Source: a virus
Reading direction: 5' to 3' (one strand)
Length of the DNA stretch: 34,092 bases
IMG/VR virus record: IMGVR_UViG_3300029286_000149
Location: 1 to 34,092 of that record
How positions within the stretch are numbered: position 1 is the first letter of the stretch; each line of letters begins with the position of its first letter. The notes below the pieces were generated by a model. It was not told where the DNA came from. It saw nothing but the letters and a program-made list of their open reading frames with translations, and did no database searches. Of the stretch, positions 3,339 to 20,947 are shown one piece after another. The translations under genes were made by a program, and so were the position numbers.

Positions 3339-3568
3339 GCGCATTTATTATCCAATCACAGCTTGAAGACACAATAGACTTGTTAAGCAAACGCAACGTC
3401 ATATTGTCGATGGACAACGCAGAGTTGAAACGAAACCTACGCAAAGCTAGGGCAACAGTTCACCAGCTTAGGCTCCAGCGGAAACGTCTTAACCAGATAG
3501 TGAAAGAGTTAAACAAATGCGTAACGATGAATACCAACAGATCGTGGACAGAGTTACAAAAAAAGTAA
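3335..3568 (+). CDS. Small coiled-coil protein (77 aa)
   Basis: Starts at GTG 3335 in a GTGA overlap with the previous stop. Residues 8-62 are strongly helical, with heptad-like spacing of Leu, Ile and Val and many Arg and Lys (for example ELKRNLRKARATVHQL), which predicts a basic coiled coil that could dimerise or bind nucleic acid. No homologue is recognised. Its last 52 bases overlap the next ORF in another frame; both frames look coding, as is common in phage early regions. Confidence 0.6.
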   Translation: MSAFIIQSQLEDTIDLLSKRNVILSMDNAELKRNLRKARATVHQLRLQRKRLNQIVKELNKCVTMNTNRSWTELQKK

Positions 3569-3747
3569 ACCTTTCAAATACGTTTAGGATTTTCTTTCAC
3601 AGACCTAACGGAGTTTTAGACGGTTACTTTAACAACATCAACGGAAACAATCTCAAAGAAGTCTTGAACACACTTCCTAAACTATGGATTGCAGTTGTGT
3701 TCAACATTTCCGAAAACGAATTTCAATTCAGCAGAAACAATTTTTAA
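3517..3747 (+). CDS. Small early protein of unknown function (76 aa)
   Basis: ATG at 3517 opens a 76-codon frame ending at 3747, inside the left arm of the large hairpin that follows. The product begins MRNDEYQQIVDRV and has mixed alpha/beta character with an aromatic C-terminal half (FRIFFHRPNG; LWIAVVFNI). There is no recognised domain. It overlaps the coiled-coil gene by 52 bases. It belongs to the integrase-proximal operon by spacing. Confidence 0.55.
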   Translation: MRNDEYQQIVDRVTKKVNLSNTFRIFFHRPNGVLDGYFNNINGNNLKEVLNTLPKLWIAVVFNISENEFQFSRNNF

Positions 3748-3842
3748 CGTGTATGCACAGCAACATAATCTAACAGCAAACAAAAACTCTGGGGAGGGTT
3801 TTGCGCCAAAAGAAAACCGTTGCTCCCTACATACACGTTAAA
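3743..3842 (+). ncRNA. Long structured hairpin RNA between early operon and polymerase operon
   Basis: TTTAACGTGTATG (3743-3755) is a perfect inverted copy of CATACACGTTAAA (3830-3842). Inside it AGCAAC (3759-3764) pairs with GTTGCT (3819-3824), and GGTTTT (3797-3802) pairs with AAAACC (3813-3818). An alternative pairing GGGAG (3792-3796) with CTCCC (3823-3827) competes with the middle stem, so two folds are possible. CCCCTTTT follows, then the ATG at 3851. T7 places RNase III processing hairpins around its early genes and gene 1, so a processing site, attenuator or early terminator is likely. The 104-nt gap is otherwise empty. Confidence 0.65.
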
Positions 3843-3850
3843 CCCCTTTT

Positions 3851-4114
3851 ATGGTAAAACCCAAAGAAACAAAATGGTTGGTTCAGTCCGGTAAAGACGT
3901 AGTTGATCTATGTGGTTACGGGTTGACCAAAGAACAAGCAGACAACCTGAAAACCAAACTGAAAAACGAGGAACACAAGCACGTTAGGATCAGGAAAGAA
4001 GATCCTCATTATCCTTCATGGCCCTTGGAGTTTGATGCCGAGCATGAAGAACGGATTAAAACGATGATAGCTTCAAAAAAGCTGTTAAAAAATGAACAGA
4101 ACATCCGCACCTAG
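3851..4114 (+). CDS. Small charged protein of unknown function (87 aa)
   Basis: An 87-residue protein that starts 9 bases after the hairpin, with no SD in the leader (CCCCTTTT then ATG). The N-terminal half (KWLVQSGKDVVDLCGYGLTKEQADNL in two pieces) resembles short phage proteins with a beta-alpha arrangement; the C-terminal half is rich in Lys and Glu. It overlaps the deaminase gene by 23 bases. No function is recognised. Confidence 0.65.
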   Translation: MVKPKETKWLVQSGKDVVDLCGYGLTKEQADNLKTKLKNEEHKHVRIRKEDPHYPSWPLEFDAEHEERIKTMIASKKLLKNEQNIRT

Positions 4115-4529
4115 ACCCGATTGGGATACATGGTTCATGGGACTTGCTGTCGCCGTAGCGTCCCGAAGTGAAGACCCCCATCAAAAGGTGGGGTGTGTAG
4201 CTGTCCGTCAGGATCTAAGCATTGTTGGTGTGGGATACAATGGGGTTCCTTCTGGTGTCGAAATAGATTGGTCTAACAGAGATGCCAGAAGGCCCATTGT
4301 TATCCACGCTGAAGCCAATGCCCTACGCTACGCAAAGCCTCACGAAGTCAGAGTTCTTTACGTGACCCTGCTTCCATGTCCATCCTGCCTGACCCTCATT
4401 GCGTCCTACCGCATCCCTGCGGTGCGTTGTATGTGTCCGTTGGATAGGTCAAACGACATCCCTAATGCCCTTGAGATAGCGCAAGCTCTTGGTATTCAAC
4501 TCAACATCAGTATGCCTAACAATGGATAA
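4092..4529 (+). CDS. dCMP/cytidine deaminase family protein
   Basis: A 145-residue zinc-dependent deaminase that probably converts dCMP to dUMP to feed thymidylate synthesis during phage replication. The zinc site is complete: H72-A-E74 (HAEANAL) with the proton-shuttling Glu, and P95-C96-P-S-C99. Upstream motifs fit deoxycytidylate deaminases: SEDPHQKVGCVAV and GYNGVPSGV. Length matches phage dCMP deaminases. The start at 4092 lies inside the end of the previous gene and behind AAAAA. It overlaps the RNA polymerase start by 8 bases, so the enzyme is made with the earliest genes. Substrate preference over tRNA- or nucleoside-acting relatives is inferred from the phage context. Confidence 0.88.
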   Translation: MNRTSAPRPDWDTWFMGLAVAVASRSEDPHQKVGCVAVRQDLSIVGVGYNGVPSGVEIDWSNRDARRPIVIHAEANALRYAKPHEVRVLYVTLLPCPSCLTLIASYRIPAVRCMCPLDRSNDIPNALEIAQALGIQLNISMPNNG

Positions 4530-6936
4530 TCAGCTTACTCTGGAGAAAAGCCAGATTGAGGAGGGTAAGCTACGGTATCGAAAACGGTTGAACAGCCTTG
4601 AAAGCTCCGAAACCTATTGGGGAAACAACCTTCTTAAACAAGCCGTTCCTAATTTTAAGAAAGCTATTTCAGATTGGTTTGATTCACAGAAAAGTTCCCG
4701 TGCTGGGAACATTGCTTACTTTTCGGAAATAAGGAAAGTTCTTTCCTCTTGGGATATAGCCGAAGCTGCTACTCAGGAAATTATTAACTCCCTTACTACT
4801 GGTGAGGGAATGAACAGAGTGTGCTTACTGGTAGGACACGCTATTGAGTTCCGGTTTGTAATGAGCAAAGCACGAGCAAAGATTGGGAACAAAGAGTGGG
4901 ATCACATTGTTAAAAACTTTATCAGCAAGCATCATTCCTTGAGACACAAACAAGATTCATTACGGGACATTGTGGAAGATAAAGGCTTTGTTTTTGATTT
5001 TAGCACCAAGCAACGTCTCGCCATTGGAAACTGCCTTGTCCATTTGTTCCATAGCAGCACCGGACTTATTGAGTTCATAAAGCTCCGCACCCCTAATTTT
5101 CGCTACAGAATCCACGTAGTAATGTCTGAAGAAGCAAAGCAATGGGTGGAAAAGGTAAACGAACATTGCGAAATAATGAATCCAGTTCGTTACCCGATGA
5201 TAACCCCTCCCGAAGATTGGCAACCATTCCAACTGTATTCCGGTGGGTATAAGATGGATGAGAATAAGTTACCGTTAATCAAATCGCATCACCGTCTGCA
5301 TCATTTGGTTCCACGAAACAACCCAATGAGAAACGTGATAGAGGCTGTTAACGGTCTGCAAAAAGTTCCGTGGAAAATCAACACACAAGTTCTTGAAGTG
5401 GTTGATAAATTCTTCTCAGAAAAACGAAGCATCAACGACATTCTTCCGTTCCACGGCTTGCAGGATTTACCTCAAAAGCCATACGACATGGAAACCAACG
5501 AGGAAGCACGGAAGTATTGGAGGCGACAAGCCAACATGGTTTACCGCTCCAACTACGAGAACAAGACTCGTTTCTTCCTTATCGCCAAAACAATCCACAT
5601 TGCTCGCTTACTCAAGGGACACAGCAAATTCTGGTTCCCAATGCAGTTGGATTTTAGAGGACGTATGTATTACTCAACCGAGTGTTTGCAACCTCAAGGA
5701 AGCGACTTGGCCCGTGGGCTACTTACCTTTGGTGAATCCAAACCCCTCAAAAACGATGAAGACTTTTCGTGGTTTTTTATCAACGGAGCCAACAAGTTTG
5801 GTATGGATAAGGAGAGCTTTGAAGTCCGGTTGCAATGGGTAACAGACAACTTTGAAAACATCCGAAGGAGTGCTGAAGATCCTTATTCTGAAACGTGGTG
5901 GACAACGGCTGACAAACCTTGGCAGTTCCTAGCGTGGTGTTTTGAGTATTGGAGATTCCACACCAGAACAACCGAAACATTTGAAACAAGCCTTCCGTGT
6001 GGGATTGATTCGACCAACAACGGTTTACAAATCCTTTCCCTGCTTTGTCGGGATTTGAACACGGCAGTTTTGACCAACGTGATTGCCCCTTCCAAAAAAG
6101 CAGGGCCAAATGACATTTACCGAACCGTCTTGAACCGAGTCATTTCAAAACTTCAAGAGACAAACGATGAGCTTTCCAAGCAACTTCTCCAAAGCGGCTT
6201 GTTGAGACGTTCCGTAGTCAAAGTTCCGGTAATGGCTATGCCTTACGGAATCAAACCCCACGGGACGCTGGAAGCTATTGATGCTGAGTTCAAACGGATC
6301 AGCTTCAACGAGCCTAAAACTTATGACATACTACCAGATAACGTGAGGCGAAATGCGGCTCTACTTCTTGGTAATGCCATACGAGACGTTATCGGTGATC
6401 TTTTGAACGGGCCGAAGGAAGTCATGGAGTGGCTTAAAGAAACAACGAAGAAAGTTTCCAACCAAAACGTGTTCGTCCAATGGCTAACCCCTAGCGGATT
6501 CAAAGTGGTGTGTGCCTACCCAAAATCCACTGTTGAGTCATACAATTTGGTATGGAACGGAAAAGCAGTAAACCGTTCATCTATGGTGGAGGACTATTCA
6601 ACGGTCAGTTCCAGAACCACAGTCAACTCAATCTGTGCCAATTACGTCCACAGTCTTGATGCTTCCGTAGCCCACATTGTTTCCCAACGTGCTTCTGAAA
6701 TGGGCATATCTCTTGGGGTCATACATGATTGCTACGCAACCCATCCAAGTGATGTTCAAGCTGTAATCTCTTTGGTGCGAGACACTTACGCCGATATGTT
6801 TTCCGTGAATTTACTGGAAGATTTTCGGCAGCAGCTATCGTGCCAAGTAACCAAAAACAAACCCGAAAAAATTTTCAGCATTGATGAAGATTTTCCTATT
6901 GACCAAGTGCGTCAGTCCGAATACTTTCTCTGCTGA
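4522..6936 (+). CDS. T7-like single-subunit RNA polymerase
   Basis: An 804-residue DNA-directed RNA polymerase of the T7/mitochondrial family, the hallmark of Autographiviridae. It would transcribe the middle and late phage genes. Conserved parts are visible in order: MQLDFRGRMYYS and PQGSDLARGLLTFGE (T7: DWRGRVYA, PQGNDMTKGLLT); motif A with D496 in CGIDSTNNGLQILS; motif B with K567 and Y575 in RSVVKVPVMAMPYGIK, keeping the K-to-Y spacing of T7; and motif C with D736 in GVIHDCYATHP after VHSLDAS. T7 RNAP is 883 aa, so this one is shorter, mostly in the N-terminal domain. I choose ATG 4522, which overlaps the deaminase by 8 bases; an upstream ATG at 4489 would add 11 residues from within the deaminase reading. 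Motif A differs from the T7 DGSCSGIQ, and no T7-type promoter was found, so promoter specificity is probably different. Confidence 0.97.
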   Translation: MDNQLTLEKSQIEEGKLRYRKRLNSLESSETYWGNNLLKQAVPNFKKAISDWFDSQKSSRAGNIAYFSEIRKVLSSWDIAEAATQEIINSLTTGEGMNRVCLLVGHAIEFRFVMSKARAKIGNKEWDHIVKNFISKHHSLRHKQDSLRDIVEDKGFVFDFSTKQRLAIGNCLVHLFHSSTGLIEFIKLRTPNFRYRIHVVMSEEAKQWVEKVNEHCEIMNPVRYPMITPPEDWQPFQLYSGGYKMDENKLPLIKSHHRLHHLVPRNNPMRNVIEAVNGLQKVPWKINTQVLEVVDKFFSEKRSINDILPFHGLQDLPQKPYDMETNEEARKYWRRQANMVYRSNYENKTRFFLIAKTIHIARLLKGHSKFWFPMQLDFRGRMYYSTECLQPQGSDLARGLLTFGESKPLKNDEDFSWFFINGANKFGMDKESFEVRLQWVTDNFENIRRSAEDPYSETWWTTADKPWQFLAWCFEYWRFHTRTTETFETSLPCGIDSTNNGLQILSLLCRDLNTAVLTNVIAPSKKAGPNDIYRTVLNRVISKLQETNDELSKQLLQSGLLRRSVVKVPVMAMPYGIKPHGTLEAIDAEFKRISFNEPKTYDILPDNVRRNAALLLGNAIRDVIGDLLNGPKEVMEWLKETTKKVSNQNVFVQWLTPSGFKVVCAYPKSTVESYNLVWNGKAVNRSSMVEDYSTVSSRTTVNSICANYVHSLDASVAHIVSQRASEMGISLGVIHDCYATHPSDVQAVISLVRDTYADMFSVNLLEDFRQQLSCQVTKNKPEKIFSIDEDFPIDQVRQSEYFLC

Positions 6937-19863: not shown

Positions 19864-20829
19864 ATGGCTAATGGCGATACTACTGTCTCTCGTTTGGGGC
19901 AAGTTAACATTACTTCGGATGTTTACAGCCTTTTCTTGAAGAAGTTTGCGGGTGAGGTTCTCACTAGTTTCACGACTGAGAACATCATGATGCCGTTGCA
20001 TACGGTTCGCACAATTTCCAATGGTAAAAGTGCTCAATTTCCGGTCACTGGAACTGCCTCTGCGAAATATCACACCCCAGGTCAAAACATCCTTGATTCG
20101 GGTAACTCCTACCTGTCCCAGATCCGCGCTGGCGAACGTGTTATCACGATTGATAACCTGCTGCTCTCCTCAACCTTTATTGCTCGTATTGACGAAGCGA
20201 TGAACCACTACGATGTGCGTTCCATCTATTCGACTGAGCTTGGTCGGGCGTTGGCTCAGAAGTTCGACAAAACGGTTCTTCAGGTCTTGTCCACTACTGC
20301 TTCTGTTGCTGAAGCGTTCACTGGTAGTGGAGCCGGAACGACTCTGAACAAAGGCACGGCTGTGCGGACGGGTGCTAACCTTTCCGCTGCGGTTTACGAA
20401 GCTGCTCAGACTCTCGACGAAAAGAACATCCCCTCGGATGGTCGTTTCGTTGTGGTCAAGCCTGCTGAGTATTATGCTTTGGTTCAGGAACTTTCGGCCC
20501 CTTCTAAGCCCTCTCCTGTTGGTTCGTATGTGAATGGTGACGTTGCTGTGATTGCGGGTATCCGCATCTTCAAGAGCAACAACCTTCCTACGACTAACGT
20601 GAACGCTGGACTTATCGAAACCGGAGCCAACACCAACTACAACGGTAACTTCACTAACACTGTCGCACTTGTCGCCCACAAAGCGGCAGTCGGCACGGTG
20701 AAGCTCCTTGATTTGGCTATTGAATCTGAGTATCAGATCACTCACCAAGGAACTCTGATGGTTGCGAAATACGCTATGGGTCACGGAGCACTCCGTCCTG
20801 AGTGTGTTGTTCGCATCACTGCTGCCTAA
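19864..20829 (+). CDS. Major capsid protein, T7 gp10-like
   Basis: A 321-residue HK97-fold shell protein. T7-like landmarks: FLKKFAGEVLTSF near residue 23, TVRTISNGKSAQFPVTGTASAKYHTPG (in T7 MVRSISSGKSAQFPVLG), GERVITIDNLLL, and DEAMNHYDVRSIYS. T7 gp10A is 345 aa. Codons are visibly GC-richer and more uniform than those of neighbouring genes, as expected for the most expressed protein. No frameshift extension (as in T7 gp10B) is evident; the frame ends in TAA and a hairpin follows. Confidence 0.96.
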   Translation: MANGDTTVSRLGQVNITSDVYSLFLKKFAGEVLTSFTTENIMMPLHTVRTISNGKSAQFPVTGTASAKYHTPGQNILDSGNSYLSQIRAGERVITIDNLLLSSTFIARIDEAMNHYDVRSIYSTELGRALAQKFDKTVLQVLSTTASVAEAFTGSGAGTTLNKGTAVRTGANLSAAVYEAAQTLDEKNIPSDGRFVVVKPAEYYALVQELSAPSKPSPVGSYVNGDVAVIAGIRIFKSNNLPTTNVNAGLIETGANTNYNGNFTNTVALVAHKAAVGTVKLLDLAIESEYQITHQGTLMVAKYAMGHGALRPECVVRITAA

Positions 20830-20837
20830 CATTTGGC

Positions 20838-20897
20838 GGGGTGTCTCTAGCTTAATACGGTTTTTGCTCATTTTACCGTAAAGCTAAGGGACACCCC
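20838..20897 (+). terminator. Hairpin terminator after capsid gene
   Basis: Three stacked stems: GGGGTGTC (20838-20845) with GACACCCC (20890-20897), TAGCTT (20848-20853) with AAGCTA (20881-20886), and TACGG (20856-20860) with CCGTA (20876-20880), around a T-rich loop. T7 has its main late terminator (T-phi) at this very place after gene 10. The hairpin is followed by TCCCAAAAAATTT rather than a T-run, so host-type intrinsic termination is not assured; it may act on the phage polymerase or stabilise capsid mRNA. Confidence 0.75.
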
Positions 20898-20947
20898 TCC
20901 CAAAAAATTTGTTTGAAAATGAGTCTTAATTAGGTCTTAATACTTCC

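Follow-up and report, generated by a model that had tools for sequence, protein, structure and literature searches.

A structured RNA of about 100 nt is present on the + strand at positions 3743–3842 of a T7-like phage contig. We propose, with a probability of about 0.5, that it forms a hairpin in the early mRNA and acts in cis, coupling translation of the deaminase–polymerase cluster to that of a small upstream gene, ORF 3517; this would be a known type of device at a new place, its coupling role being predicted. The window is the whole stretch of DNA that was analysed, 34,092 nt in length. Profile matches of its proteins identified the contig as a T7-like phage carrying an integrase, with genes for a single-subunit RNA polymerase, a dCMP deaminase, a tyrosine integrase, a primase/helicase, a DNA polymerase and an exonuclease, and structural genes for the head-tail connector, scaffold and capsid. 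The nearest named polymerases were about 30% identical to its RNA polymerase, and a prophage search for the host of the phage gave no match. Among the IMG/VR relatives, L006 and L008 were near-identical to the window, and L001–L005 and L007 were related. The features of the region are as follows.

3517–3747, + strand: ORF 3517, the 76-aa upstream ORF, with its stop codon within the 5′ arm of the hairpin
3743–3755, + strand: 5′ arm of the outer stem, TTTAACGTGTATG, a perfect complement of 3830–3842, identical in L005 and L007
3745–3747, + strand: TAA stop codon of ORF 3517, hairpin bases 3–5, inside the 5′ arm, at the same position in L005
3759–3764, + strand: 5′ side of the inner stem, AGCAAC, pair probability 0.94–0.995
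3783–3790 and 3795–3802, + strand: apical hairpin AAAACUCU-GGGG-AGGGUUUU, in the minimum free energy (MFE) fold of both alleles, 7 bp kept in L005
3792–3796, + strand: GGGAG, 5′ side of the alternative helix, probability 0.005 in free RNA
3819–3824, + strand: 3′ side of the inner stem, GTTGCT; GTTGTT in L005, a change from G-C to G-U
3823–3827, + strand: CTCCC, 3′ side of the alternative helix; TTTCC in L005
3830–3842, + strand: 3′ arm of the outer stem, CATACACGTTAAA, identical in L005 and L007
3851–4114, + strand: ORF 3851, an 87-aa ORF, first of the deaminase–polymerase cluster, start codon 8 nt past the hairpin
4092–4529, + strand: dCMP deaminase (PHROG 174, E 6.7e-38), overlapping ORF 3851 by 23 nt
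4522–6936, + strand: T7-like single-subunit RNA polymerase (PHROG 414, E 4e-189), overlapping the deaminase by 8 nt

The outer stem is a perfect 13-bp inverted repeat (3743–3755 and 3830–3842) with an interior of 74 nt. It was the longest perfect inverted repeat in the window at spacers of up to 150 nt, where the chance expectation for a repeat that long is about 0.07 per window; first-order Markov copies gave 0.03 for length 13 and 0.03 for length 14. The hairpin had an MFE of −29.8 kcal/mol (z −4.27), and 0 of 200 shuffles were as good. In a + strand scan of 1700 segments of 100 nt, the element ranked about 11th by z among separated peaks, those at 20801, 1361 and 221 being stronger. The perfect outer stem described in the original prediction was thus borne out, exceeding the Markov-copy expectation. 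The best + strand fold consisted of this stem, the inner stem AGCAAC/GUUGCU and the apical hairpin AAAACUCU-GGGG-AGGGUUUU. Of the two inner 6-bp stems that had been described, AGCAAC/GTTGCT was retained with high pair probability, and the other, GGTTTT (3797–3802) with AAAACC (3813–3818), had a probability of 0.01; it is displaced by the AAAACUCU/AGGGUUUU hairpin, which had been missed.

Copies of the element, 87% identical to the window, lie at the corresponding gene junction of L005 and L007. The copies in L005 and L007 are the same and that of L006 equals the window, so that the comparison holds two distinct alleles only. Searches of viral contigs with the polymerase, the integrase, ORF 3851, ORF 3517 and three DNA patterns returned the same few contigs and no extra alleles. 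The fold of both alleles supports the prediction that a structured + strand RNA separates the integrase-side genes from the deaminase–polymerase genes.

A competing GGGAG/CTCCC pairing had also been predicted. The pairing exists as a minor state: its helix and GGUUUU/AAAACC belong together in one alternative fold, with pair probabilities of 0.005–0.01, at −27.2 kcal/mol compared with −29.8 kcal/mol for the best fold of the window allele (2.6 kcal/mol worse). In L005, the alternative helix needs two G-U pairs and is 6.6 kcal/mol worse. The alternative became the best fold of the window allele only when a ribosome covered the 5′ arm or the start codon carried an initiation complex, and in neither case in L005. 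When the 5′ arm was masked, the alternative best fold of the window freed most of the 3′ arm, and L005 did not form the alternative. The only distinct relative therefore does not conserve the mutually exclusive helices of a two-state switch.

Nearly all gene junctions from the integrase through the polymerase overlap or abut in three lineages. The gap between ORF 3517 and ORF 3851 is 103 nt in both alleles and is the only such gap in the early cluster of the window; L005 has a further gap of 106 nt at another junction, where a 136-nt stretch folds at −27.5 kcal/mol. Between the hairpin end and the start codon of ORF 3851 there are 8 nt in the window and 10 nt in L005, and from ORF 3851 to the RNA polymerase each gene overlaps the next in both. 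The ORF 3851 protein showed 63% identity in L005 and 45% in L003, and the ORF 3517 protein 86% and 53%, respectively. The ORF 3517 product had no match in Pfam or PHROGs; it was predicted to adopt a small alpha/beta fold (pLDDT 84), which gave no significant match in fold comparison. An apparent deletion at about 3517–3570 in the window fuses two small ORFs relative to L005, and with this apparent fusion ORF 3517 starts in another frame than its L005 homologue and differs at the N-terminus. Most listed gene starts in the window have no evident Shine-Dalgarno sequence, and their leaders are A/T- and C-rich.

We computed the cost of opening the start-site stretch (−18 to +12), free or with a ribosome footprint of 31 nt on the upstream stop codon. 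For ORF 3851 the free cost was 15.7 kcal/mol, the second highest among 34 gene starts (median 6.65), and it dropped to 5.8 kcal/mol with a ribosome on the ORF 3517 stop. For L005 the costs were 17.1 and 8.9 kcal/mol, respectively. In both alleles, then, computed structure covers the downstream start site and, by computation, an upstream ribosome relieves it. Dinucleotide-shuffled gaps gave a relief of 0.0 ± 0.8, and 0 of 400 reached 9.9 (window) or 8.2 (L005); the blockage level itself was matched by 2% and 0.75% of shuffles, respectively. At the T7 junctions 0.4–0.5, 0.7–1, 1–1.1 and 1.2–1.3, the relief was −0.3, 0.0, 0.1 and −0.7, respectively. It ranged from −2.2 to 0.1 at the integrase–polymerase gaps of LUZ100, BB8, HTVC019P and a Limnohabitans phage, and was 0.5 at the capsid junction of the window phage. 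Since the stem joins the stop and start regions, the relief quantifies this geometry and does not prove its use. For translational coupling, what is established is the geometry of the sequence, the fold predicted for each of the two alleles and the opening costs obtained by computation.

From these we infer that the hairpin folds in the cell, that it couples translation and that polymerase output depends on the coupling. In free RNA, the outer stem would end 8 nt 5′ of the ORF 3851 start, within the ribosome-binding stretch, so that initiation at ORF 3851 is proposed to be blocked. A ribosome finishing ORF 3517 would halt on the UAA in the 5′ arm, cover that arm and free the 3′ arm, and this release would make initiation at ORF 3851 possible. 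Through the overlaps of ORF 3851 with the deaminase and of the deaminase with the polymerase, the hairpin would also set polymerase output. Precedents for coupling of this kind are genes VII–IX of phage f1, where a long hairpin ends just 5′ of gene IX, and E. coli rpmI–rplT (PMC12548453). As proposed here, the hairpin in these systems ends just 5′ of the downstream start, and the ribosome translating the upstream gene opens it (PMC12548453). The spacing differs, being −4 nt in f1 and +52 nt in rpmI–rplT, whereas the window has a gap of 103 nt with a hairpin spanning stop to start. Structure just 3′ of a stop codon can reduce coupling (review PMC12548453). The deaminase and the polymerase, with start-site opening costs of 10.0 and 10.8 kcal/mol, could start independently, which counts against coupling.

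The main rival of coupling is RNase III processing, also raised in the original prediction, in which the host enzyme would cleave the early polycistronic mRNA at the hairpin and release a separate polymerase message. T7 early mRNA is processed by RNase III at five sites (PMC4858673), and the window element resembles these sites in being a hairpin between cistrons of the early mRNA, ahead of the phage RNA polymerase gene. It lies just 5′ of the polymerase cluster, in an early region of co-directional genes. Its stem of 13–15 bp, internal loop and 6-bp stem could serve as a substrate. However, the hairpins of the T7 early leaders leave the downstream start site open, and they share a sequence (AAGGTC..TC, read from the T7 leaders) that had no match near the element and no matches above chance in the window. 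We consider processing of this kind unlikely as the explanation of the element, although it and coupling could act together.

Comparison of the two alleles bears on a further reading, that the hairpin merely provides spacing, as a chance or relic structure in a recently exchanged block of DNA. The alleles differ by 11 substitutions and one 2-nt indel (87 of 98 aligned positions identical). At the synonymous sites of the adjacent ORF 3517, identity was 15/17 at fourfold sites and 50/56 at third positions, which is the level of the element; the level of identity alone is therefore no sign of selection. Fourfold-site identity in the polymerase was 110/246 between the window and L005. A block of about 300 bp, comprising the last part of ORF 3517 together with the element, looks recently exchanged between two lineages, as judged from these identities. 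The divergence is thus as expected of a relic, but its distribution argues for a maintained structure, as do the 13-bp repeat and the fold, which exceed shuffles. None of the 26 outer-stem positions changed, compared with 11 of the 74 interior positions (p 0.03). In the fold of the window itself, substitutions weakly avoided paired positions (4/64 paired vs 7/36 unpaired, p 0.048); the stronger contrast of 1/56 vs 10/44 (p 0.001) is biased, the helices having been picked with both alleles in view. The + strand fold energies were alike (−29.8 kcal/mol in the window and −30.9 in L005), and the minus-strand fold weakened from −37.0 to −24.8. With the changes placed randomly inside the outer stem, the observed strand difference arose in 0.25% of trials, and with the changes placed anywhere in the element in 3.7%. 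The two distinct alleles showed no compensatory pair, which counts against coupling, and one change from G-C to G-U; at a position just within the outer stem, C-A in the window is U-G in L005.

The element is also missing from a lineage closer to the window, which fits a relic and likewise speaks against coupling. In L002 and L003 the element is absent, and TAAAATG, with a gap of 1 nt, links this pair of genes; the start-site opening cost in L003 is 2.9 kcal/mol. The group L001–L003 is nearer to the window than L005 in polymerase (88% identity for L001, 82% for L005) and integrase (87% for L003, 72% for L005). The comparison of sequences shows an element that is optional, in one lineage and missing from a closer one, and one would not expect the closer lineage to lack a device on which the life cycle depends. 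Since L003 manages without it, the element is no required switch, and the idea that it decides between lysis and lysogeny was not upheld. On balance, a spacer or relic without function is quite improbable.

Still less probable is a DNA site at which a repressor or the integrase would bind the two arms in inverted orientation. The arms are identical in both alleles, and a MarR-like repressor that binds sites flanking a promoter 5′ of the polymerase has been hypothesised for other T7-like phages that are temperate (PMC10134795). However, no repressor was recognised among the scanned early-region proteins, nor on visual inspection of the L035 ORF list; the spacer had no promoter motif, there were no further copies of the arms, and the conserved interior fold would be left unexplained. 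A phage promoter in the spacer was rejected: no motif was common to other gaps, and CTCTGGGGAGGGTTT occurred once without mismatch.

Slightly more doubtful again is that the element terminates or attenuates transcription between the integrase genes and the polymerase genes; an attenuator was among the suggestions of the original prediction. T4 of LUZ100, a T7-like phage with temperate features, lies at the same integrase–polymerase position and strongly stops transcripts arriving through the integrase (PMC10134795). T4 is a predicted Rho-independent terminator, whereas the window element has no T-run after the stem, CCCCTTTTATGG being found instead, and a terminator scan was negative at the element. 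A T-tailed terminator of canonical form is present at another place in this phage, 1359–1401. A stand-alone stable RNA of 100 nt, which the paired, blunt ends would suit, is scarcely credible: Rfam 15 covariance models gave no match to the element at gathering score or E ≤ 5, there was no promoter motif, and no copies were found elsewhere in the window, in its relatives or in 84,980 genome species or plasmids, one chance phage match aside.

Further candidates were rejected. A reading frame, NSGEGFA.KENRC.LHTR, runs through the 3′ half in both alleles, but the 2-nt indel shifts the upstream frames and the changes hit second as well as third positions. The consensus ends of an integron attC site are GTTRRRY and RYYYAAC. 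By eye, GTTAAAC (3837–3843) fits the first, but TTTTAAC (3742–3748) misfits the second and the stem is continuous. A mobile repeat was rejected as no copies of the element occur elsewhere; L011, which is rich in ACGTGTAT repeats, is an unrelated phage. A search for a tRNA-type att site found nothing above chance.

Other elements of the window were also recorded. A strong hairpin without a T-run lies 3′ of the capsid gene (20833–20900, z −7.1) and is kept in L019, with an apparent compensatory pair (U-A to A-U) and a U-G to C-G change. In these sequences its covariation support is better than that for the 3743–3842 element, and it may be a terminator or a processing site of the phage. Another hairpin, G+C-rich and located 3′ of the first ORF (220–290), has TTTGGCGGGGTGT in common with the start of the late hairpin (20831–20843). 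A glutamine amidotransferase-like gene, an unusual phage cargo, lies 5′ of the integrase (342–1262) and is followed by the canonical intrinsic terminator at 1359–1401 (CCGCCGGCC...GGCCGGCGGTTTTTT). Short direct repeats 5′ of the integrase, at 1476–1595, 1647–1742 and about 1773–1850 (CTCGCTTCGCTCG three times, GGC.ATTTT...TTTTCA three times and CATCCTTGCTGTATTTT twice), are possibly integrase arm sites. Tandem perfect sigma-54-type sites (TTGGCACG-N4-TTGC) at 1864–1879 and 1892–1907 lie about 80–120 bp 5′ of the integrase start, and L003 has similar tandem sites 5′ of its integrase, the one exact and the other carrying a single mismatch. It would be unusual, if true, for a phage integrase to be under sigma-54 control.

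Returning to translational coupling, published ideas on how integrase-bearing T7-like phages keep the polymerase off are a MarR-like repressor and a terminator (LUZ100, PMC10134795). That translation of the 76-aa ORF might gate the phage's own RNA polymerase through the hairpin, as RNA-level control of lytic entry in an integrase-bearing phage with no repressor recognised among its scanned early-region proteins, is a doubtful extension of the model. If true, a translational gate before the polymerase cluster would be a layer of control distinct from the repressor and terminator ideas.
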